NCBI RefSeq assembly: GCF_023195515.1
Contig: NZ_JALPKR020000002.1
Span: 3,263,001 to 3,327,000 of the forward strand
DNA: 64,000 nucleotides
Reading direction: 5' to 3'
Source of the DNA: Variovorax sp. S12S4
GTDB lineage: Bacteria > Pseudomonadota > Gammaproteobacteria > Burkholderiales > Burkholderiaceae_C
In this document: piece by piece, positions 15,786 through 37,953 of the stretch
Layout: the number at the start of each line of letters is the position of its first letter
How positions within the stretch are numbered: position 1 is the first letter of the stretch
Translations under genes and position numbers: made by a program
The notes under the pieces: model-generated
Database searches by the model: none
Told to the model about the DNA's origin: nothing
What the model saw: the letters and a program-made list of their open reading frames with translations, nothing else

Positions 15786-15985
15786 CTCGGTGCTTCGAGT
15801 TAGTGCATTACCGAAGGCGACAGCCCGTAACGCTCAGGTCCCCAGACTGGATGAATGACTAACGCTGGAGAGCGCTGCCCGGCGTCCTGAACAAAAGGAC
15901 TCCGAGGGCGGCCGCCGAAGGGGCAAGCCATGCGCGATGAGCGTGCATGGTGAATCTCTCAGGCCAAAGGACAGCAGGGGCATCT
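15786..15985 (+). ncRNA. Glycine riboswitch (intact aptamer, probable degenerate first aptamer)
   Basis: The segment 15863-15980 has the glycine aptamer hallmarks in order: GGAGAG, a variable stem, GCCGAAGGGGCAA, another variable stem, then ATCTCTCAGGCCAAAGGACAG. The stretch upstream, about 15787-15855, repeats the same logic more weakly (CCGAAGGCGACAG, then CGCTCAGGTCCCCAGACTGG), as in tandem glycine riboswitches. About 190 bases of leader separate it from the start of the peptide-binding protein gene at 16176. A hairpin (CGCGC-agt-GCGCG, near 15985-16000) may belong to the expression platform. Short ORFs crossing this region are not credible. Glycine is the expected ligand. Confidence 0.85.
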
Positions 15986-26182: not shown

Positions 26183-27580
26183 CTACCAGCTGCCGGATGC
26201 CCCGCCGCCGCTGCTGGAGCCGCCGCCGCCCGATGAAGATGACGAAGACGACGACGAGGAAGAAGAGCTGCTGGAGGAGCTGCCGCTCCAGCCCCTGTCG
26301 CCCGAGCTGTAGCGAACGCGGCCCGCGCCGTTCCCATTGCCGAAGGCGAGCGGAAGAAAGGCGAATGCCGATGTCACCACAGCCACCAACGTGAGCGGCA
26401 TCCACATCGTGTCCTCTGCAATGCTCTGGAAGGCCGTCGCGCCCATCACGGCCATGGCACCGAGCACGAAAAGAAGGCGCAACCCGAAGCTGGCGAAGCT
26501 TGCGCGCCAGGCATTGCGCATGCCGAACGCCACGCCCGAGGCGAACGCAAGGCCGATCGTGGCGGCGAACAGATACATGGCACCCTGCAGCAGCACGTCC
26601 GCTCCCACCCTGCGGGCCGCCACGACGAGCAGCACGATCAGCAGCACCGCGGCGGCGGTAACGCGCCGCGCCGTGCGCGAGCGGGCGCAGGCCATTCCCA
26701 GCCCGAAGCCGAGCGGGGCGGGCATCGTCGCAAGCATGAAAAGCATCACAGGTTCGCGCAGGATGACGGCGGCCGCCAGCGCAGGGGCCATGAGCATGCC
26801 GAACGACAGCTTCCAGTGGGAATGGGCGCGCAAGAAAGAATCCGGGGCCGGGGCGGCCGCGCGCCTGCGCTTCGGCTTGCCGGACCGCCGGCTGTGCCAG
26901 ATGCCCACGCCAACGCTCCAGAGCAGAACGCCGAAGAGGGCCCAGCCCGCAGGCGTCACGCGGCCCATGCCGGTGGGGCCGCTTTCTTCCGGCTCTTCCT
27001 GTGCTTGCAGCGTGTGCTGTTCGTCCTCCGGCGTGTCCGGCTCGGCGATCATCATGGAGGGCTGCGTGCCGGCCCGCTGCGACAGCACCTGCAGCGTCGC
27101 CTCGATGCCCTCCGCGAACTCGCCCTTGCGAAAGGCCGGCGTCATCTGCTCGTCGATGGCGCGGGCGGCCTGTATGTCGGTGATGGCGCCTTCCAGGCCC
27201 GTGCCCACCTCAATGCGCATGCGGCGGTCTTTCAGCGCCACCAGCAGCAGCACGCCGTCGTCTTCTTGCTCGCGGCCCAGCTTCCAGGCGGCGAAGACAC
27301 GCGTGGCGTACTGCTCGATCGAGTCTTCCCCGGTGGTCGGCACGATCAGTACCGCAAACTGCGCCTGGGTTTCGTTCTCGATGGATGCAATCTGCTGCCG
27401 CAAAGCCTCGGCTTGGGAGGGCTTCAGCGTCTTCGTCAGATCGACCACGCGCGACTGCATCGGTGGCACGGGCACAGGCTTGGCTTGCGCCGGCAAGGGC
27501 CACGCGAGCAGCGCAGCCACATGCAGGCTCAACCACCACCAGAGCCGCAGAGCTCGCATCCCGCCGAAGGCTGCCTTCAT
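26183..27580 (-). CDS. TPM-domain membrane protein with poly-Ser/Gly tail
   Basis: 465 residues. A signal peptide (LWWWLSLHVAALLAWPLPAQA) leads to a periplasmic TPM domain (VVDLTKTLKPSQAEAL; ALKDRRMRIEVGTGLEGAITD; FRKGEFAEGIEATL). A single helix near residue 240 and about six more in the C-terminal half follow. The protein ends in a run of about 18 Ser, then Gly/Ser and SGSW, typical of TPM proteins. TPM domains occur in YgcG-like and photosystem repair proteins; their role here is unknown. The ATG overlaps the pbpC stop as ATGA, so the two are translationally coupled. Confidence 0.85.
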   Translation of the reverse strand: MKAAFGGMRALRLWWWLSLHVAALLAWPLPAQAKPVPVPPMQSRVVDLTKTLKPSQAEALRQQIASIENETQAQFAVLIVPTTGEDSIEQYATRVFAAWKLGREQEDDGVLLLVALKDRRMRIEVGTGLEGAITDIQAARAIDEQMTPAFRKGEFAEGIEATLQVLSQRAGTQPSMMIAEPDTPEDEQHTLQAQEEPEESGPTGMGRVTPAGWALFGVLLWSVGVGIWHSRRSGKPKRRRAAAPAPDSFLRAHSHWKLSFGMLMAPALAAAVILREPVMLFMLATMPAPLGFGLGMACARSRTARRVTAAAVLLIVLLVVAARRVGADVLLQGAMYLFAATIGLAFASGVAFGMRNAWRASFASFGLRLLFVLGAMAVMGATAFQSIAEDTMWMPLTLVAVVTSAFAFLPLAFGNGNGAGRVRYSSGDRGWSGSSSSSSSSSSSSSSSSSGGGGSSSGGGASGSW

Positions 27581-29869
27581 CGGCGGGCGCTTTTCGCGAC
27601 CACGCCCGCGCCGCGTACTTCGAGCCTGCGCTGGTCGACCACCTTGCCCGTCGCGTCGACGAGTTCGATCACGTGGCGCCCCGGCCAGGGCAGCCATTGC
27701 GCGCTGTTGCCGCGCGCAAAGTGCTTGCCGTCGATGCGCCATTGCACGCCGCGGCCTTCGGACTCGAAGCGCACGCGCTGGTGCAGGGGCGGAATGTCCG
27801 GGTCGAGCGCGATGATGGTGCCGTCGACCGGCGCGATGATGCGCGCCGCCGCGTTGTTTGCCGCCGGCGTGCCCGCGCCGGTATCGAGCGCAAAGAGCGG
27901 CTGCTCCGTACCTTGCAGGAACCACTCGCTGCGCGCGGCCTCCAGCGGGTTGCCGTCGGCGCCGGGTCCGAAGGCCACGGGTGCTTCGACCAGGCCCGCG
28001 GGCGGCCTCGGCGCACGGCTCGGCTCGCGTGCGTGCAAAAAGCGCATCACCTCGGCCCACACCGGGGCCGCGCCGCTGGTGCCGCTCACGTCCCACATCG
28101 ACGCGCCGCTCGCGTTGCCGACCCACACGCCCACCGTGTAGCGCTGCGACCAGCCCACGGCCCAGTTGTCGCGCATGTCCTTGCTGGTGCCGGTTTTCAC
28201 GGCGGTCCAGAAGCGCGTCGAAAGAATGCTGTCGGGCCCGAAGGTGCGCGTGCGTGCGTTCGCGTCGGACAGGATGTCGCCGACGATGAAGGCCGCGGCC
28301 GGGTCGAGCATGGGCGCTGCGGCAGCGGATGCGTTGTCGGCGGCCCTGGGTTTGGCCGATGAGGCCGGCGGCGGCGCGGCCGTGCGCGCCGTGAGCGTGG
28401 TGGGCCCGTGGCGCCCGCCGTTCGCCAGCATGCGATAGGCATTGGTGAGCGACAGCAGCGACACCTCGGCGCTGCCGAGCGCGAGGCTGTAGCCGTAGTA
28501 GTCGCCGCTTTCGCGCAGCGGCAGCCCGGCCGCGCGCAGTTGCCGCGCGAACGATTCGGGCGACACCATCGCCAGCGTGCGCACGGCCGGCACGTTGAGC
28601 GATGCGGCAAGCGCCGTGCGCGCCGACACCGGCCCCTTGAACTGGCGGTCGTAGTTCTGCGGAATGTAGAGGCCGCTGGCGGTGTTGATCTGCGCCGACG
28701 AATCGTCGATGAGCGATGCCGCGGTGAGCCGCCGTTCGGCAATGGCCTGTGCATAGAGCAGCGGCTTGAGCGTGGAGCCCGGCTGGCGCAGCGCGGTGAC
28801 GGCATCGACCTCGGCCGCCTGGCTCAGCGCGCCCGACGAGCCGACCCATGCCAGCACCTCGCCGCTCGCGTTGTCGAGCACCACCAGCGCGCCGTCTTCC
28901 ACATGGCGGCCGCGCAGTTCCTTCAGGTGGCGCTGCAGCGCATCGAGCGCAAAGCGCTGCAGCGGCGCGCGCAGGGTGGTGCGCACGGCAGTTTCCTTTG
29001 GGGCTCGCTTGCCGCGCGGGCGCCGCGGACTTTGCGGTCGCTTCGGCCTCGCCCAATTCCTTCAGCACGCGACGAGCCGCGTGCGGCGCAATGCCTTCGT
29101 TCGCATCGAACGCCCGCCGCTGCACCGCCGCACTGGTGAACATGTCGAGCGCATCGCAGTCGATCTTCTGGCCCGGCTCCATTGCGCGCATGACCTCGCA
29201 CGCGCGCTGCGCCACCTGCGCGGGCTTGGCGTTGGGTGCGCGCACCAGCGCCGCGGCCACGGCCGCCTCGCGCGCGTCCAGCCCGCTCGGTGCCTTGCCG
29301 AACAGCGTGCGCGAAAGCGCATCGATGCCTACGATCTCGCCGCGGAACGGCACGGTGTTGAGGTAGGCCTCCAGGATCTGGTCCTTGCGCCAGTTGCGCT
29401 CCAGCTGAGTGGCCGCCACCGTCTGGCCGATCTTCTGCGTGAAAGTGCGCCCGCTGTTGGCACGGCGCAGGTCTTCGTCGAGCAGGCCCGAGAGCTGCAT
29501 CGTGATGGTCGAGGCGCCGCGCGTGCGGGTGTTCCACAGGTTGGCCCACGCCGCCGACGACACCGCGCGCCAGTCGATGCCACTGTGCTCGTAGAAGCGC
29601 CTGTCCTCGCTCAGCACCATGGCCATGCGCAGCGCCGGCGACACATCGGCCAGCGCAATCCATTGGCCGCGCCGCACCGTGGCGTCGGTGCGCACGCGCT
29701 GCAGCAGTTCGCCGCTGCGGTCGAGCACCGCGGTGTCCGACGAGCGGAACCCGCGCTTCACTTCGTCGAAGCTCACCGCACCGGCCGCAAAGGCAGCGGC
29801 CGGCTGCATGCAGGCAGCCACGATCAATGCAGCGGCAAGATGGCTGGCGGTAAATGACGGGCGATGCAT
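27577..29869 (-). pseudogene. pbpC: Penicillin-binding protein 1C, split by an apparent frameshift
   Basis: Starting at 29869, the first frame encodes a signal/membrane segment and the GT51 glycosyltransferase domain (LSEDRRFYEHSGIDW; RGASTITMQLSGLL). The transpeptidase domain continues in another frame to 27577, with the STLK active-site motif (QPGSTLKPL), SLN (ALAASLNVPA) and KTG (VKTGTSKDM), then the PBP1C C-terminal domain (RIDGKHFARGN). The change of frame lies near 29000-29003, where one base fewer in the CCCC (coding strand) restores a continuous SPKETAVRTTLRAP. Either the gene is broken or the assembly has a homopolymer error. A GTG at 28986 opens the second part. It is coupled to the TPM gene. 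Confidence 0.85.
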
Positions 29870-30139
29870 GAAGGGCGTGAACTGGAGGCGGGCAAATCGA
29901 TGGCGAAGCCGCGCCATTCTCGGCGATGCGCCCACGGGAACTGCACCTACTCCGACTCAGGCGTGCCGCCGCCTCCCGTGCTCAGAAATTACAGCCAAAG
30001 TTCGCAGCAAGGTTCCACATCCGGTAACGAACTTCACGCCCGAGCGTCATTCGGGATACGCAGCCGAGACGGAGGTGGCCTTCAATGCAGACGACGGCTT
30101 GCGGAGGCAGGCCGCGTTTGAAAACTCCAAGGAGAAATC

Positions 30140-30367: not shown

Positions 30368-30994
30368 TCAGGCGGGCCGGCGCGGGAGCAGCGCCCACAC
30401 GCCCGCCGCGCTCAGCAGCGAGCCGCCCGCAAGGTTGAAGCGCCGTTGTGCGCGCGGCGACGAAAGCAGCTTGCGGGCCGATCCCGCAAACACGGCATAG
30501 AGCGTGGCATTGAGCGCGGCCATGGCCACGAAGGTGACCGCCAGCACCCACAGCTGGCGCGTCATGTTGGCTGCGGGGCTCAGAAACTGCGGCAAGAACG
30601 CCACGAAGAACACGATGCCCTTGGGGTTGAGCGCCGTCACCAGGTAGGTGTTCGCGAACAGCCGCCAGCGCGAATCGGGCGCGGCAGGCGCCGCGACTTC
30701 GGACGACGTGATGCCCGCGCGCAGCAGCTTGATGCCGAGGTACAGCAGGTACAGGCCGCCCGCCCACTTCACCACCGTGAACCAGAACGCCGAAGCGGCC
30801 AGCAGCGCACCCAGGCCGAGCAGCGAAACCACCAGCGCCGTCGAATCGCCCAACGCCACAGCAGCCACCAGCGGCACATTGGCGCGCCGTCCGTGCGACA
30901 TGGAATAGCTGATCACCGTGAGGATGGTCGGGCCGGGAATGATCAGCAGCACGGCCGATGCCGCCACGAAGGCGAGCCAGAGTTCAACGGGCAT
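30368..30994 (-). CDS. LysE/RhtB family amino acid exporter
   Basis: 208 residues, about six membrane helices. The family signature PGPTILTVISYSMSHGRRA lies near the N-terminus, and NPKGIVFFVAFLPQF in the middle. Members export amino acids such as homoserine, threonine or lysine. The substrate is not evident. It converges with the small lipoprotein gene, ending 18 bases from it. Confidence 0.92.
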   Translation of the reverse strand: MPVELWLAFVAASAVLLIIPGPTILTVISYSMSHGRRANVPLVAAVALGDSTALVVSLLGLGALLAASAFWFTVVKWAGGLYLLYLGIKLLRAGITSSEVAAPAAPDSRWRLFANTYLVTALNPKGIVFFVAFLPQFLSPAANMTRQLWVLAVTFVAMAALNATLYAVFAGSARKLLSSPRAQRRFNLAGGSLLSAAGVWALLPRRPA

Positions 30995-31021
30995 GAAAAG
31001 TCTCCAGGGTTGTTGTTGCGG

Positions 31022-31291
31022 TCAGGTGCCGAAGCGCGCGGCCGACCTGGCCTTGGCACGCTCCGCCTCTATGGCGCGGTCGCGCGGCTCGGCAGTGGTC
31101 ACCAGCGAATCGATCAGGCGCGCAGCCGTTGCAGCCACTTCGTCGACCGCGCGCTCGAAGGCCTCCTCGTTGGCCTTGGAGGGCACGCTGAAGCCGCTGA
31201 GCTTGCGCACGAACTGCAGCGCCGCGGCGCGGATCTCCTGCTCGGTGGCGGGAGGCTCGAAGTTGTAGAGGGTCTTGATGCTTCTGCACAT
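31022..31291 (-). CDS. DUF2277 family protein
   Basis: 89 residues. The N-terminus MCRSIKTLYNFEPPATEQEI and the following FVRKLSGFSVPSKANEEAFERAV match the compact helical DUF2277 family, of unknown function. It is cytoplasmic and just upstream of the LysE gene on the same strand. Confidence 0.85.
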   Translation of the reverse strand: MCRSIKTLYNFEPPATEQEIRAAALQFVRKLSGFSVPSKANEEAFERAVDEVAATAARLIDSLVTTAEPRDRAIEAERAKARSAARFGT

Positions 31292-31338
31292 GGGCGAACT
31301 CCATTCGGCAGTATTCGGCAGTGGATGCGTCCGCCAGT

Positions 31339-31833
31339 CTAGCGAAGCAGCGCCATCGCGTGGGCGTCGTGATAGACGCCGACGATCAGGCTGGCGCGGC
31401 GCACGAGGCCTTCGTGCTCGAAGCCGAAGCGGTCGTACAGCGCCTTCGCATTCAGGTTGTCCGTGCGAACCGTCAGCTGAATGCGCGTGAGTCCGCGTGC
31501 CCACGACCTGTCGATGGCGGCCTGCAGCAGCTGCGCACCGAGCCCCTGGCCGCGTGCCTCGGGCAGCAGTGCGATGCCCAGGAGGCCGATGTGGGCGCGC
31601 GAATGGCCGAATACCGGCGACACGTCGCACCAGCCCACGACCTTGCCGGTGCCATCGACAGCAACGAAATGAGGGAAGCCCGTGGACAGCACATTCTGAT
31701 AAAAGGCAAGCGACTGCTCCAGCGGCGGTGCTTGCGTGAGCGCGAGGTACTTCTGCTCGCGCGCCACGGCGTCGAGCGCCTTGTGCAGGCTTTCGAAGTG
31801 GTGTTCTTCGGTGGCAACGACGGAATGGTTCAT
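31339..31833 (-). CDS. GNAT family N-acetyltransferase
   Basis: 164 residues. The acetyl-CoA loop is LLPEARGQGLGAQLLQAAI, following the beta-4 strand HIGLLGIALL. The C-terminal NAKALYDRFGFEHEGLVRRA is typical. The acceptor is unknown. It lies 22 bases after the next GNAT gene on the same strand, so the two may be cotranscribed. Confidence 0.88.
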   Translation of the reverse strand: MNHSVVATEEHHFESLHKALDAVAREQKYLALTQAPPLEQSLAFYQNVLSTGFPHFVAVDGTGKVVGWCDVSPVFGHSRAHIGLLGIALLPEARGQGLGAQLLQAAIDRSWARGLTRIQLTVRTDNLNAKALYDRFGFEHEGLVRRASLIVGVYHDAHAMALLR

Positions 31834-31855
31834 GCGCGCGAGACGAAACGCGTGC

Positions 31856-32281
31856 TCATTCGATCAGCCCGCGCTCCGCGGCCTGCGCCTGGTTCTCGAA
31901 GACGGCCATGGCGGTCTTCATTCGCCTGAAGCCGAACTTTTCGTAGAAGGGCTCCTTGCCCGCCACCGCATACAGAATGATCTTGCGGTGGCCTTTTGAA
32001 AGCTCCATGAGCCGAGAGACGAGCTGCTTGCCGAGGCCCGTGCCCTGATGGGTGGGGTGCACCGCCACGTCACAGATGTAGGAGCAGTCGAGCCCGTCGG
32101 CCACTGCACGCCCGGCGCCGACCATGTGGCCGTTGTCGTACACGAAGCACTTGAACATGCTGTTGGAGAACACGAGCTTCAGGCCGTCGGGCTGCTTGTT
32201 GCCGAGCGGTGCGGCCTGGTAGAGCCGCGAGAGTTCTTCCCAGTCGATGCCTTCGAGCGAATGGCGCCATTCGAGTGTCAT
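31856..32281 (-). CDS. GNAT family N-acetyltransferase
   Basis: 141 residues. Acetyl-CoA binding motif is AVHPTHQGTGLGKQLVSRLM; the C-terminus has EPFYEKFGFRRMKTAM. The single-domain form with FVYDNGHMVGAGRAVADG resembles YhbS-like or arylamine-type acetyltransferases. Substrate is unknown. It lies 28 bases beyond the mnmH stop and may be read from the same transcript. Confidence 0.88.
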   Translation of the reverse strand: MTLEWRHSLEGIDWEELSRLYQAAPLGNKQPDGLKLVFSNSMFKCFVYDNGHMVGAGRAVADGLDCSYICDVAVHPTHQGTGLGKQLVSRLMELSKGHRKIILYAVAGKEPFYEKFGFRRMKTAMAVFENQAQAAERGLIE

Positions 32282-32309: not shown

Positions 32310-33383
32310 TCACCCGGCCGCGTTCAACCGCAGGATGGCCTCCGCCACGGCCTCGATGCCTTGGTCCGTGAGGTCCGGCGCAGCCACCTGCTGGCGCAGC
32401 GGCCACTTTTTGAAATGGCGCGCCTGCGAGCGTTCGTAGTGCGGATCGTAATGAAGCGCCATCAGTTCCGCAAAAAGCTGCGGCAGGTCGCCCGCCATCG
32501 CCCATTCCTGCCAGCGCTGTACCACGGCCTTGCCCTGCATTTCCTTCAGCCTGCCTAGCTGTTCTGCGAGCGCCGCGCGGTCGTCGCCCAGGTAGGCATA
32601 GTCGCGCAGCAGGTAGTCGAGCCGGGCGGCCGCATCCGCTTGAATTTCGATGCATGCCGCGGCGCGCATGTGCGCGACCAGGGGAATGGGAACCGAGAGC
32701 CTGCCGATGCGGGCGCTTTCGCCTTCCACATACAGCGTGCGCGAGAGGTCGAGCGCACCGAAGCAGGTGGCAATGCGCGTTTCGAACTGCTTTTGCGACG
32801 GCTGCGGCACGCCGGGCAGGGCGCCCAGCAGCGAGCCCTTGTGGCTGGCGTAGTGTTCCAGGTCGAGCACCTGTTCGCCGCGGTCAGCCAGTGCCTGCAG
32901 CACGCGCGTCTTGGCGCTGCCGGTGGCGCCGCAGATCACCTTGAGCCGAAGCTTCGGCACCGCGGCCTCGATTTGCGCCAGCACATGGTGGCGAAAGCTC
33001 TTGTAGCCACCGGCAAGCTGCTGCGCGTCCCACCCGACCAGGCGCAGCCAGGTGACCATCGAACCGCTGCGCAGCCCTCCGCGCCAGCAATACACGAGCG
33101 GCCGCCAGTTGGCGGGTTGCTCGCCGAAGCGTTCGCGCAGGTGCCGCGCGAGGTTGGCGGCCACCATGGCGCCGCCCACGCGACGCGCCTCGAATGCGCC
33201 GGTCTGCTTGTAGATGGTGCCGACGATGCGGCGCTCTTCGTCGTCGAGCACCGGGCAGTTGATGGCGCCGGGAATGTGGTCGAGCGCAAACTCGGAAGGC
33301 GAGCGCGCATCGATGACGGTGTCGAACCGGTGCAGGTCGGCCACGCGCGTGGGCTGGTGGCGCGGGTTGTCGTGCTCACGCAT
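32310..33383 (-). CDS. mnmH: tRNA 2-selenouridine synthase (SelU/MnmH)
   Basis: 357 residues. The N-terminal rhodanese domain has VIDARSPSEFALDHIPGAIN and catalytic Cys99 in VYCWRGGLRSGS. A P-loop (GATGSAKT, 152-159) begins the C-terminal domain that handles the geranylated intermediate. The enzyme replaces sulfur by selenium in 2-thiouridine at the tRNA wobble base, using selenophosphate from SelD. Its ATG at 33383 overlaps the stop of the ABC permease gene by eight bases, which ties it to that transporter operon. selD lies divergently at the other end of the transporter cluster. Confidence 0.95.
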   Translation of the reverse strand: MREHDNPRHQPTRVADLHRFDTVIDARSPSEFALDHIPGAINCPVLDDEERRIVGTIYKQTGAFEARRVGGAMVAANLARHLRERFGEQPANWRPLVYCWRGGLRSGSMVTWLRLVGWDAQQLAGGYKSFRHHVLAQIEAAVPKLRLKVICGATGSAKTRVLQALADRGEQVLDLEHYASHKGSLLGALPGVPQPSQKQFETRIATCFGALDLSRTLYVEGESARIGRLSVPIPLVAHMRAAACIEIQADAAARLDYLLRDYAYLGDDRAALAEQLGRLKEMQGKAVVQRWQEWAMAGDLPQLFAELMALHYDPHYERSQARHFKKWPLRQQVAAPDLTDQGIEAVAEAILRLNAAG

Positions 33384-34179
33384 GGGCGTGCCCCAGGTTG
33401 CGCCGCAGCCGGCCGCTTGCCAGGTCGACAAGCGCCACCAGGACGAACATTGCAATCAATACGGTCATGGCCTGCTGCTGTTGAAAGATCGACAAGTGAA
33501 AGTAGAGAAGCTGGCCCAGGCCGCCGCCGCCGACAAAACCCAGCACGGCGGCCATCCGGATGTTCATTTCCCAACGATACAGCGCATAGGCCACCCATTG
33601 CGGCAGCACGAGTGGAAGGCTGCCGTAGGCAAAGGCCGCTGCCGCGCCGGTACCACTGAGAACCAGTGCCTGCTCGGGTTCGCGCGGCGCGTTCTCCAGG
33701 CTTTCTGCGAACAGGCGGCCCAGCACGCCGGTGGTGTGCAGCGCGAGCGCGAGCGCACCGGCAAACGGGCCGATGCCCGCGGCCAGCACCATGAGCGCGG
33801 CCCACACCAGTTCAGGCACGCTGCGCAGAAAGTTGAGGACAAAACGGCAGCCCTGCCGTACCAAGAGGCCCGACCGGCCGGAGGCCGGTAACGCCAGCGC
33901 GGCGGCACCCGCGGCAGCCAGCAGCGTGCCGAGCGCCGAGACGGCCAGGGTCTGCAGTGCGCCCCACGCCGTCTTGGCGAGAAAGGCGCTCGACAAATCG
34001 GGCGGAAAGAACTCGGCGATGAACTTGCCCATGAAGCCGATCGACTCCGCTGTGAACAGCGCACGGTAGTCGATGGCCAGGTAGGCGAAGCTGGCCACCA
34101 CGGCCGCGAGCACCAGCGCCGATGCGATCCAGCAGCGGATGCAGCGAGGTGGTCCGGCCAGGTCGACGTGCCCGTTCAT
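33376..34179 (-). CDS. PhnE-like ABC transporter permease (second)
   Basis: 267 residues, about six membrane helices. The PhnE-type coupling region is AFAYGSLPLVLPQWVAYALYRWEMNIRMAAVLGFVG. The start at 34179 overlaps the preceding permease stop as ATGA, and its stop overlaps the mnmH start by eight bases. It forms a heterodimeric channel with the other PhnE-like protein. No phosphonate-degrading genes are in the window. Sandwiched between two selenium genes, the cargo may be a selenium compound, which is inference. Confidence 0.9.
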   Translation of the reverse strand: MNGHVDLAGPPRCIRCWIASALVLAAVVASFAYLAIDYRALFTAESIGFMGKFIAEFFPPDLSSAFLAKTAWGALQTLAVSALGTLLAAAGAAALALPASGRSGLLVRQGCRFVLNFLRSVPELVWAALMVLAAGIGPFAGALALALHTTGVLGRLFAESLENAPREPEQALVLSGTGAAAAFAYGSLPLVLPQWVAYALYRWEMNIRMAAVLGFVGGGGLGQLLYFHLSIFQQQQAMTVLIAMFVLVALVDLASGRLRRNLGHAHA

Positions 34180-35030
34180 GCCAGCAGCCGCCGCAACGCA
34201 TTGCTCAGCGCATCGGCGAGCAACACCAGCACCAGGAACACCAGCAGGATGCTGCTGGCTTCGCCGCCGTTGAGCATCTTCATCGACTGGTCCATGAGCT
34301 GGCCCAGGCCGCCCGCGCCCACGAAACCCATCACCACCGAGGCCCTGACGGCGCATTCCCAGCGGTACACGGTGTAAGAGATGAGCTCCTGCGCGGAGTT
34401 GGGCAACAGGCCGTACACCAGTGCGGCAAAGCGCCCGCTGCCGCTTTCCAGCAACGCGCGGGCGGGGCGGGTGTCGGTCGATTCGAGCACTTCGGCATAC
34501 ACCTTGCCGAGCATGCCGCCATAGGTGATGGCCAGTGCCAGCACGCCGGCCGCCGGGCCAAGGCCCAGCGCACGCACGAAGACCAGTGCCCAGACGATCT
34601 CGGGCACGGCGCGCAGCACCATCAGCACCGAGCGCCCGGCTTGCCGCACCATGCCGGCTTGCGCACGGCCAGGTCCGGGGCCGATGCGCGAAACCGAGAG
34701 CGCGCGGGTGGTCACAAAAGCCAGCGGCGCGCCGATGACGAATGCCAGCGCCGTGCCGGCGGTGGCCATGGCCAGCGTCTCCAGCGTGGCCTTGGCCAGC
34801 ATCGCCAGAAAATCCGGTGCGGTTTCCGGCGGCAGAAAGCCAGCGAGGAAACCGCCGATCACCTGCAGGTTGCCGGGGGCGAACAGGGCCGAGGGCGCAA
34901 AGCCCGACAGCTGCAGCATCGGCCATGCGATGACGAACGCGGCCAGCAGCCACACTAGGCGGCGGCGCGCCAGCGGGTCGCGCAGCGCGGGCGCTGTGCG
35001 TTGCGGCAATGGCTGCTGCACGGTGCTCAC
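34176..35030 (-). CDS. PhnE-like ABC transporter permease (first)
   Basis: 284 residues. The membrane domain begins after a short basic arm ([24 protein letters not shown]). The coupling segment reads [44 protein letters not shown], closely parallel to the second permease. ATGA overlaps join it to the ATPase gene upstream and the second permease downstream. Two adjacent PhnE-type permeases are common in phosphonate/phosphite importers. Confidence 0.9.
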
Positions 35031-35866
35031 AGGCAGTCAGGGCGTTCGATGGTGTTGGCGGCGCCCGAAGCGAATGCGCCCGACGCGATGTCGATCGGCC
35101 GTTCGCGTGCCTGCACCGGCAGCCCGCCTTCGCTTGCATAGAGCGCCACGAGCATCGGCTCGGTCACATTGCCGACTGGCTCGTCGAACACCACCTGCCC
35201 ACCGCGCATGCCGACGATGCGAGGAAACCAGCGCAGCGCCAGGTCGACCGCATGCAGCGAGGCCACGAGCGTGGCGCCGGTCGATTCGCTTTGCGCCACC
35301 AGCTGCTGCAGCGCGGCATCGGCCAGCGTCGGGTCGAGCGCGGACACCGGTTCGTCGGCCAGCAGCAGCGCGGGCCGCTGGTAGAGCACGCGGGCGATAC
35401 CCACGCGCTGCAGCTGGCCGCCGGAAAGACGGTCGCAGCGGTCGAACAACCGCTCTTCGAGCGAGAGGCGCGACAGCACCTCGTGCGCCCCTGCAAGGTC
35501 TGACGGGCGCAGCAGCGAAGCCAGAGCGCGCATTGCGCTCCATTGCCCCAGGCGCCCCGAGAGCACGGCGGTGACCACGCGCAGGCGCGGCGCGATCGGC
35601 GGGCTCTGGTGCACGGTTCCGATGCGGGAGCGCAGCTTGCGCAGTGCGGGCGCAGCCAGGCTCCAAGGCGATTGGCCGAGCAGCTGCACCGTGCCTTCGC
35701 CGGGCCGCAGCGCAGTGCCGAGCACGCGCAGCAGCGTGGTCTTGCCGGCGCCAGAAGGCCCGATGACGGCCACGCGCTCGCCCGCACGTGCGGCAAACGA
35801 CACGCCTCGCAGCGCGCGATGGCCGTTCGGGTGAACCAGCCCGACGTGGTCGAGCGAGAAACTCAC
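35027..35866 (-). CDS. PhnC-like ABC transporter ATP-binding protein
   Basis: 279 residues. Walker A is [11 protein letters not shown], signature [15 protein letters not shown], Walker [14 protein letters not shown], and the switch region is [20 protein letters not shown]. The last feature is typical of PhnC. About 50 unusual C-terminal residues ([20 protein letters not shown]) follow the normal PhnC end. It powers the PhnD/PhnE-like importer. Confidence 0.9.
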
Positions 35867-35897
35867 GCGACGGCTCCGCTGGCGCGCCGCAATCGCA

Positions 35898-36755
35898 TCA
35901 CTTGATCAGCCCAGCCGACTTGGCGGCGGCTTCGATGCCGTCGTAGTTCGACGACTTGGTGGCAATGAACTTGCTCGCGCGCTGAAGGTTCATGATGTCT
36001 TTCATGGCGGGGTTGGCCGGGTCCAGCTTCAGGAAGGCCTCGGTGAGCTTTTTCGTCAGTGCCGGATCGAGGCCGGGGCGCACCGTCCAGTTGTAGTCGT
36101 AGTAGGTCGGCGTGGTGGCCAGCACGCGCACCTTGGCGGCGTTCGGGTTCTTGCTTTCGACCAGCTTCTCCCACACCGACGCATTCAGCACGCCGGCTTC
36201 GGCGCGCGAGGCGGCCACGAAGGCCACGGTGGCGTCGTGCGCGCCGGAAAACGCGACCGTCTTGAAGTCCTTTTCAGGGTCGATGCCGGCCTGCATGAGG
36301 AAGTAGCGCGGCATCAGGCTGCCCGAGGTGGAGGAGGGTGCGCCGAACGCGAAGGTCTTGCCCTTCAGGTCGGCCAGCGTCTTGGCGGTGCTGTCCTGCG
36401 GCACGATGAACTTGCTGGTGAACACTTCGTCTTCCGCGCGCTGCACGATCGGCACCGCGCCGCCGTTGGTGCGAAGGCGGGCCTGCACAAAGGTAAAGCC
36501 GCCGAGCCACGCCAGGTCGATCTTGTTCGTGGCCAGGCCTTCGACCACCGCGGCGTAGTCGGTCACGGGCGTGAACTGCACGTCCATGCCGGTTTCCTTC
36601 TTCAGATAGTCGCCCAGCGGCGTGAACTTGCGCTGCAGTTCGGTGGGCGCCTCGTCGGGAATGGCGGAGACGCGCAGCACCTTGCCTTGTGCAAAGGCAC
36701 CCAGGGCGAAGGCGGACAGCGAGAGTGCAAGGGCGATGCGAAGGATGGGTTTCAT
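35898..36755 (-). CDS. PhnD-like ABC transporter substrate-binding protein
   Basis: 285 residues. Signal peptide is [20 protein letters not shown]. PhnD hallmarks are [48 protein letters not shown] and [21 protein letters not shown]. The SSTSGS loop forms the oxyanion-binding site in phosphonate- and phosphite-binding relatives. Here the gene heads an operon that ends with mnmH and diverges from selD across about 118 bases. A selenium oxyanion or organo-selenium ligand would explain that; phosphonate remains the default family ligand. An in-frame ATG at 36770 is an alternative start. Confidence 0.9.
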
Positions 36756-36873
36756 GGCGTGGCGCGGCATGGCGCAAGGGAGAAGGGACAACCTTCGATT
36801 GTAGAAACCCGTGTCCGGGCGCCGTTTGCGCGCGGCTTCGATAATGGGCGACTGCCCTGATACGGATTGCGCC

Positions 36874-37953
36874 ATGACCGACACGCCGACGATTTCACCC
36901 CTCAACCCGCTGGCTCCGCTGCGGCTCACCAGCTTTTCGCACGGCGGCGGATGCGGCTGCAAGATCGCACCCGGCGTGCTGTCTGAAATCCTGAAGAACA
37001 GCGGCGGCGGCCTCATTCCGCCGGAGCTGATGGTGGGCATCGAAACGGCCGACGACGCGGCCGTGTACCGCCTGAACGACAAGCAGGCGCTGATCGCGAC
37101 CACCGACTTCTTCATGCCCATCGTGGACGACCCGTACGAGTTCGGCCGCATTGCAGCCACCAACGCCATCAGCGATGTCTACGCAATGGGCGGCAAGCCG
37201 ATCATGGCGCTGGCGCTGGTCGCAATGCCGGTCAACCAGCTGCCGGTGGAAGTGATCGGCGACATCGTGCGCGGCGGGCAGGACGTGTGCCGCGCGGCCG
37301 GCATTCCGATTGCGGGCGGCCACACCATCGATTCGGTCGAACCGATCTACGGGCTCGTGGTGATGGGCCTGGTCGACCCGGCCCACGTCAAGCGCAACGC
37401 CGAGGCCCGCGCGGGCGACGTGCTGGTGCTGGGCAAGCCGTTGGGCGTGGGCGTGCTCTCGGCTGCGCTCAAGAAAGAAAAGCTTTCGCTTGCCGGTTAC
37501 CGGCAGCTCATCGAAAACACCACGCGGCTCAACACGCCGGGCATTGCGCTGGCCACGATGCCGGGTGTGCATGCGCTCACCGACGTCACCGGCTTCGGGC
37601 TGGCCGGCCATGCGCTGGAGCTCGCGCGCGGCGCCAAGCTCACGGCCACCATCGACTGGCCGCGCGTGCCGCTGCTGGACGGCGTGGCCGCCATGGCGGC
37701 GGATGGTTTCGTGACGGGCGCCTCCGGCCGCAACTGGGCCGGCTACGGCGCGGAGATCGAGCTTGCGAAAGGCCTCCCGGCCATGGCGCAGGCACTGCTG
37801 AGCGACCCGCAGACCTCGGGCGGCCTGCTCGTGAGCTGCGCTGCCGAGTCGGCCGAAGCGGTGCTGCAGGTCTTTCGGCGCGAAGGCTTTGCGGATGCCG
37901 CTGTGGTCGGCCGCATGGAGCAAGGCCCCGCGCGCCTGCTCGTGTTGGCCTGA
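36874..37953 (+). CDS. selD: Selenophosphate synthase
   Basis: 359 residues. It makes selenophosphate from selenide and ATP. The N-terminal catalytic loop is SHGGGCGCK, with Cys27 in the place of the Cys or selenocysteine nucleophile and Lys30 conserved. The AIRS ATP-binding fold follows (ATTDFFMPIVDDPYEFGRIA; GGHTIDSVEPIYG; DPQTSGGLL). The ATG at 36874 was chosen over the upstream in-frame start because the family begins here. It diverges from the PhnD-like transporter operon that ends in mnmH. No SelA, SelB or tRNA-Sec gene was seen, so tRNA selenation is the evident use. Confidence 0.95.
   Translation: MTDTPTISPLNPLAPLRLTSFSHGGGCGCKIAPGVLSEILKNSGGGLIPPELMVGIETADDAAVYRLNDKQALIATTDFFMPIVDDPYEFGRIAATNAISDVYAMGGKPIMALALVAMPVNQLPVEVIGDIVRGGQDVCRAAGIPIAGGHTIDSVEPIYGLVVMGLVDPAHVKRNAEARAGDVLVLGKPLGVGVLSAALKKEKLSLAGYRQLIENTTRLNTPGIALATMPGVHALTDVTGFGLAGHALELARGAKLTATIDWPRVPLLDGVAAMAADGFVTGASGRNWAGYGAEIELAKGLPAMAQALLSDPQTSGGLLVSCAAESAEAVLQVFRREGFADAAVVGRMEQGPARLLVLA

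Follow-up and report, generated by a model that had tools for sequence, protein, structure and literature searches.

A 64,000-nucleotide stretch of the genome of Variovorax sp. S12S4 (contig NZ_JALPKR020000002.1, positions 3,263,001 to 3,327,000; hereafter the window) carries at one locus six intact open reading frames (ORFs), five on the minus strand (phnD, phnC, phnE1, phnE2 and mnmH) and one, selD, on the plus strand (Table 1). The four phn genes encode the components of an ATP-binding cassette (ABC) importer, which we propose to be a supplier of selenium. The gene order given in a preliminary description of this DNA, phnD-phnC-phnE-phnE-mnmH with a divergent selD, was confirmed from the ORF coordinates and profile matches, as were the gap of about 118 bases between selD and phnD and the 8-base overlap of mnmH with the last permease gene. 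The ATGA overlaps said there to join the genes are found at one junction of the locus, phnE1/phnE2; phnC and phnE1 overlap by GTGA, and phnD and phnC are 31 bp apart. The phnD–selD intergenic region presumably carries the promoters of both genes.

Table 1. Positions of the genes and the intergenic region of the locus within the window
Feature	Product or description	Position	Strand	Basis and remarks
phnD	Periplasmic PhnD-family substrate-binding protein, TIGR04553 clade	35898..36755	-	TIGR04553, PF12974
phnC	PhnC-like ABC ATPase	35027..35866	-	GTG start; TIGR02315, PF00005
phnE1	PhnE-like permease 1	34176..35030	-	GTG start; TIGR01097, PF00528
phnE2	PhnE-like permease 2	33376..34179	-	TIGR01097
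mnmH/selU	tRNA 2-selenouridine synthase	32310..33383	-	NF008752
selD	Selenide, water dikinase (selenophosphate synthetase)	36874..37953	+	NF002098, TIGR00476
phnD–selD intergenic region	Divergent, 118 bp	36756..36873		From coordinates

PhnD has an N-terminus that looks like a signal peptide when judged by eye. It scores 368.4 bits against TIGR04553, over the curated cut-off of 250, and 243.6 bits against PF12974, while its 189.3 bits against the phosphonate equivalog TIGR03431 are below that model's cut-off of 261.1. The predicted structure (pLDDT 91.6) has 5LQ8, 5LQ5 and 7S6G as its top fold matches. With a PF12974 domain, the substrate-binding-protein (SBP) fold and an ATPase and permeases adjoining, the system is a PhnD-family importer with a cluster F SBP. 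NCBIfam names TIGR04553 “putative selenate ABC transporter”, and the window PhnD is, from its sequence, a putative selenium-oxyanion binder. Its closest named relative, among the matches listed, is from a Variovorax (98% identity). The best match of PhnC is to TIGR02315 (208.9 bits, below the cut-off of 266.1), with a PF00005 domain; PhnE1 (210.2 bits) falls just under and PhnE2 (226.9 bits) over the TIGR01097 cut-off of 216.7, and PhnE1 contains a PF00528 domain. The identities first given to MnmH and SelD were borne out at the equivalog level, with 513.2 bits against NF008752 for the former and 531.9 bits against NF002098 and 426.3 bits against TIGR00476 for the latter. SelD conserves the residues aligned with Cys17 and Lys20 of the Escherichia coli enzyme, and MnmH the one aligned with the rhodanese Cys97, all of which we take to be catalytic.

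Co-occurrence with selenium genes

The distribution of the family was followed in 274 genomes of the class and 398 of the phylum, with five TIGR04553 genomes common to both sets; the Fisher P values given below ignore the relatedness of the genomes. Of the 274 class genomes, 13 score above the TIGR04553 cut-off, the scores showing a clear break from 347 to 240 bits, and all 13 have selD, a gene present in 62 of the 274 (P = 1.4e-9). In the phylum set TIGR04553 is found in 34 genomes, selD in 129 and both together in 32 of the 34 (P = 3.7e-15). Co-occurrence with selD had been set beforehand as the test that could refute a selenium role; selD is present in 40 of the 42 TIGR04553 genomes of the two sets combined, and the proposal stands. 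The window genome (G000) has one selD match, the gene adjoining the transporter.

As a control, selD was counted in genomes with only below-cut-off PhnD matches (25 of 102) and in those with none (24 of 159; P = 0.07). It is found in none of the 11 genomes of the group scoring 181–240 bits, nor in any of the ten left when G036 is set aside, whose protein (L026) lies outside the sister clade in the tree. PhnD relatives outside TIGR04553 thus show little or no association with selD.

The association is not with one selenium user. Among the 13 class genomes mnmH is present in 8 (45 of 274 in the class; P = 2e-4), SelA in 4 and SenA over its cut-off in 7, and each has at least one of these consumers; the transporter occurs in genomes with selenoneine or selenocysteine genes, with or without mnmH. 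A transporter dedicated to tRNA selenation was rejected on the count of 8 of 13 for mnmH. The link to tRNA selenation drawn in the preliminary description therefore holds for selD and selenium supply in general and not for mnmH itself.

Gene neighborhoods of related transporters

The gene contexts of relatives were obtained by tblastn at 80 named loci, the best of a longer list and leaning to the close kin of the window, with flanks of up to 8 kb. The full D-C-E-E set is kept in 75 of the 80 and is therefore more than a chance arrangement. It is incomplete in L073, L087, L098 and L126, where the sequence ends within the locus, and in L102 no PhnC or PhnE match was obtained despite 2.6 kb of sequence beyond its phnD. 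A selenium gene lies within about 8 kb at 53 loci: selD at 49, senA/senB at 26, mnmH at 23, selB at 15 and selA at 14, with 12 loci carrying selA and selB together with selD and mnmH. At thirty-one loci the flank gave no match to selD. Thirty of their genomes were searched as a whole, L069 being left out, and selD was found elsewhere in 28 (L123 carries a piece of selD and is not counted); the two lacking it are metagenome-assembled genomes of Delftia (L116) and Comamonas (L124).

Within Variovorax, selD and the transporter are constant and the consumer is swapped. The layout is either selD / phnDCEE-mnmH, as in L054 and L055, or selD-senB / senA-phnDCEE, as in L078 (V. paradoxus ISL-3), where senB-senA stands between selD and the transporter. 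NCBIfam confirmed the identities of SenB, SenA and EgtD on five proteins. Since the transporter adjoins mnmH, senAB or selAB in different relatives, its neighborhoods fit a supply of selenium rather than a single use of it. The sen cluster of V. paradoxus (SenA, SenB, SenC/SelD) is thus combined with this transporter in relatives; the window genome differs in having SenA and SenB matches only below cut-off and mnmH as the neighbor. It was accordingly rejected as a selenoneine maker, and also as a selenocysteine maker, no SelA match being found in it. A ATTATCGAA-like stretch is kept in most of the Variovorax selD–phnD gaps aligned (window 36756–36873, L054–L071), and no motif common to the selD–phnD and senB–senA intergenic regions was seen when the alignments were compared by eye.

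Three further arrangements were noted at the loci. In Variovorax gossypii (L060, 36–6610) the DNA between selA and selB encodes two proteins related to the pair Rv1679/Rv1680, one resembling acyl-CoA dehydrogenases and the other resembling PhnD but with no evident signal peptide; neither reaches its NCBIfam cut-off, and a further protein, not assigned to a family, is encoded there too. Weak PhnD matches of a similar kind are present in L057, L062, L063 and L066. At L049 (8568–13123, genome G179) a PtxB-type PhnC-PhnD-PhnE set outside TIGR04553 directly precedes selD and mnmH, perhaps as an independent recruitment. A second, PtxB-type clade linked to selenium was not supported: 6 of 248 genomes, that of the query included, have a match of at least 51% identity, and in the other five it does not adjoin selD. 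At L165 (9543–11342, genome G562) tandem TIGR04553 copies stand beside selD, one of them altered at pocket positions 203–204; the tree places this altered copy nearest to the single copy of G435 (L163, 9005–9793), a genome with no selD match.

Relationship to picocyanobacterial PhnD1

By sequence and fold, the solved chains closest to the window PhnD are the PhnD1 proteins of Synechococcus MITS9220 (7S6G, 40% identical) and Prochlorococcus MIT9301 (5LQ5/5LQ8; 5LQ5 36% identical), from whose sequences picocyanobacterial PhnD1 is known here. Aligned fragments of 7S6G and 5LQ5 score 338.0 and 301.6 bits against TIGR04553, both over the cut-off. In a midpoint-rooted tree of 87 rows, PhnD1 falls inside the TIGR04553 clade (support of 95/86 for the clade with PhnD1), where it groups at 100/99 with a branch of 23 rows, among them loci that have SelD fusions and sen genes. 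The tree tool flagged long branches near PhnD1 and the composition of 5LQ5, among others. When the tree was rebuilt, again with a midpoint root, without 11 long, distant or oddly composed rows, 5LQ5 included, the two supports were 98/83 and 100/99.

PhnD1 thus resembles the window PhnD in fold, clade and TIGR04553 score, but it has been published as a “paradoxical” protein and proposed constitutive phosphate transporter (ISME J 2023, PMC10284923). According to that paper, the system is present in 97 of 97 picocyanobacterial strains of one database and has tesA near phnD1. The SelD of Prochlorococcus and Synechococcus bears an oxidoreductase-like extension, and cyanobacteria with ybbB/mnmH are reported also to have selD (Romero 2005, PMC1273633). 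The string “selen” is absent from the main text of PMC10284923 and from two related papers, PMC8786288 and PMC5700983. The link between the TIGR04553 family and PhnD1 is a new step, no sign of it having been found in the open-access literature searched.

Other known systems are more distant. The PtxB/PhnD2 phosphite importers (5O2J, 5LV1, 5JVB) have the fold, the STS motif, the His and the Tyr cap in common with the window PhnD; they have Gln at position 203 instead of Asp, occupy a separate branch of the tree, and a close PtxB-type relative reaches 147 bits against TIGR04553, under the cut-off. E. coli PhnCDE belongs to the same ABC family and has the same subunit types but, unlike the window importer, sits in a carbon–phosphorus (C–P) lyase operon; its PhnD has Gly-Asp at positions 203–204 where the window PhnD has Asp-Tyr, and lies outside the TIGR04553 clade, with PtxB in between.

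The ligand pocket

The pocket of 7S6G is reported to hold three ligand oxygens by three hydrogen bonds each and the fourth ligand position by one, from the capping Tyr204 (PMC10284923). The window PhnD is the same as 7S6G at 11 of 11 pocket positions and as 5LQ5 at 9 of 11 (T65S, S123N). The direct contacts Y44, S124-T125-S126 and H156 are identical in all 62 rows of the clade (61 of them distinct), D203 is kept in 56 and Y204 in 60. At position 203 the window protein has Asp, not the Gln of a PtxB-type pocket.

Selenate, the substrate in the NCBIfam name, is a common form of selenium in the environment, and the pocket of 7S6G also accepts tetrahedral phosphate. The uneven bonding of the fourth position would not favor such a ligand, and neither would the selectivity of five PhnD1 proteins, which prefer phosphite over phosphate by about 6-fold to more than 1000-fold (Table 1 of PMC10284923, whose text gives tenfold or more). 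A three-oxygen pocket with a preference for phosphite would suit the pyramidal XO3 of selenite better than selenate, and a selenate importer therefore appears unlikely; selenite is probably the substrate of the two, as judged from the pocket. Most selenite is present as HSeO3- at neutral pH, so that the Asp, as an acceptor in the pocket, could suit it.

The same analysis favors a small, three-oxygen, selenite-like anion over bulky organo-selenium. Import of a small organo-selenium compound, or of selenoneine or a selenosugar itself, would agree with the senA/senB genes at 26 of the 80 loci, and several SBPs of the same fold in the fold search also take organic ligands. The transporter nevertheless occurs in genomes where mnmH or selA is present and SenA does not reach its cut-off, and the conserved Tyr204 cap, reported to keep large phosphonates out of PhnD1 (PMC10284923), would disfavor such a ligand; we consider this reading very improbable. 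Of the two ligand types first put forward, a selenium oxyanion would be favored by the PhnD1 pocket and a bulky organo-selenium compound disfavored.

Evidence against a selenium importer

Several observations weigh against selenium import as the function of the clade. Two of the 42 TIGR04553 genomes have no selD match: G435, with a listed completeness of 100%, where neither PhnC nor PhnE was matched in the 19 kb around the copy and the residues at pocket positions 174, 203 and 204 are changed, and G554 (L164), which is 78% complete and has the full operon. No selenium gene lies within about 8 kb at 27 of the 80 named loci. In the 40 genomes with both genes, transporter and selD are within 10 kb in 18, farther apart on one contig in 12 and on different contigs in 10. 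By whole-genome matches, six of the 13 class genomes have the two genes no more than 10 kb apart, and a seventh, G209, has a piece of an oxidoreductase-SelD gene adjoining the transporter at a contig end; 12 of 27 further phylum genomes also have the genes within that distance, a set that excludes the two lacking selD and the five already counted with the class. Finally, 49 of the 62 class genomes with selD have no transporter, and E. coli has selD and no TIGR04553 match over the cut-off; selenium use therefore does not require the transporter, and the implication between TIGR04553 and selD runs one way.

The pocket is shared beyond the selD-linked clade. The sister clade (L017–L025 and L027; ten rows from ten genomes) keeps all direct contacts in eight of ten rows, the exceptions being one Asn for D203 and one Thr for S126, and selD is found in none of its ten genomes. 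It follows that the direct contacts give the shape of the ligand and not the element, and pocket residues alone were rejected as proof of selenium. The two clades differ at position 123, which is Leu in all ten sister rows and in none of the 62 clade rows (Ser 41, Gly 14, Thr 5, Ala 1, Asp 1); in 7S6G this position is reported to help hold a buried water (PMC10284923).

Biochemical data on PhnD1 point to phosphorus. PhnD1 binds phosphite, phosphate and methylphosphonate in vitro, with dissociation constants of 0.05–4.3 uM for phosphite and 7–182 uM for phosphate; phosphate co-purified with the crystallized protein, and in a broad ligand screen only phosphorus-source cocktails stabilized it (PMC10284923). 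These results, and a fold and family that are those of phosphite and phosphonate binders, would be expected of a phosphorus importer (of phosphite, phosphate or a small phosphonate) whose place next to selenium genes reflects common inheritance or regulation. The genomic evidence speaks otherwise. PhnJ of C–P lyase is present in just 5 of the 42 TIGR04553 genomes and, in keeping with the absence of phosphonate-lyase genes noted in the window at the outset, has no match in the window genome, and tblastn gave no match to E. coli PhnG, PhnH, PhnI, PhnJ or PhnM at any of the 80 loci. A ptxD-like query (the dehydrogenase beside the PtxB-type L046 and L052, read by us as ptxD and not so named by NCBIfam) gave one weak match of 31% (L044) among the TIGR04553 flanks scanned. 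The transporter also accompanies three different selenium users plus selD. In the picocyanobacteria themselves, phosphite did not sustain growth of two Synechococcus strains with PhnD1, and phosphorus starvation is reported not to induce phnD1C1E1 (PMC10284923). Taken together, a phosphorus importer is distinctly unlikely.

Other features of the window

Downstream of mnmH and on the same strand (30368–32281) are two GNAT acetyltransferase genes, the first beginning 28 bp past the mnmH stop, and a LysE-type exporter gene. A glycine riboswitch (RF00504, 58.1 bits) is found at 15855–15984 on the plus strand. A penicillin-binding-protein-like gene at 27577–29935 appears, from the ORF list judged by eye, to be split across two frames near 28990.

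Discussion

The transporter is defined by its genes and their order, by its membership of the TIGR04553 clade and by being tied to selD, and not to any single consumer or to C–P lyase. That it serves selenium supply is very probable, most of that weight lying on selenite. Specifically, we propose, with a probability of roughly two in three, that the four genes encode a high-affinity ABC importer supplying inorganic selenium, most likely selenite, to SelD. Selenium transport and every biochemical step are inferred from sequence. The periplasmic PhnD-type protein would capture selenite (HSeO3-/SeO3 2-), and PhnE1/PhnE2 with PhnC would carry the anion inward at the expense of ATP. Inside the cell it would be reduced to selenide, which SelD would convert to selenophosphate, used in turn by MnmH to make the 2-selenouridine of tRNA. 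With the same importer, relatives would supply SenA/SenB for selenoneine or SelA/SelB for selenocysteine.

The idea of a selenium transporter is not new, the window locus being a member of a family already named for this putative function; the NCBIfam model covers the binding protein only, and its name says selenate where the pocket would favor selenite. No paper mentioning “TIGR04553” was found in the open-access literature searched, and a search of it for proteins that take up or bind selenium yielded nothing. “Selenate ABC transporter” is in print as an annotation, in an exoproteome table of P. putida and in a Modicisalibacter genome paper (PMC13077682, PMC9426549), the latter reading it, in the part of the text available, as moving selenite out. 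Available portions of the open-access literature gave nothing related for PhnD with selenite and mention no transporter in the selenoneine/SenB texts examined; in the main text of PMC5322559, as far as available, “ABC” and “PhnD” have no occurrences. According to passages of reviews published in 2022 and 2026, prokaryotes have so far yielded no specific, high-affinity system for selenium transport (PMC9312934, PMC13188914).

Extending the proposal, we lean slightly toward the whole TIGR04553 clade, PhnD1-PhnCE included, being the missing dedicated selenium importer, with selenite as its physiological ligand. A role of PhnD1 as a selenite importer would explain why it binds phosphite tightly in strains unable to use phosphite and why phosphorus starvation does not induce it; a role in selenium import would also explain its universality, given the SelD fusion of picocyanobacteria and the company of selD and ybbB/mnmH in cyanobacteria. 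The link between the family and PhnD1 makes the ligand question testable with already purified proteins. If the proposal is true, selenium uptake would gain a concrete protein family with solved relatives containing ligands and open to a simple binding test, and a conserved transporter of marine picocyanobacteria would be reassigned from phosphorus to selenium, which would affect the interpretation of phnD genes in surveys of marine phosphorus.

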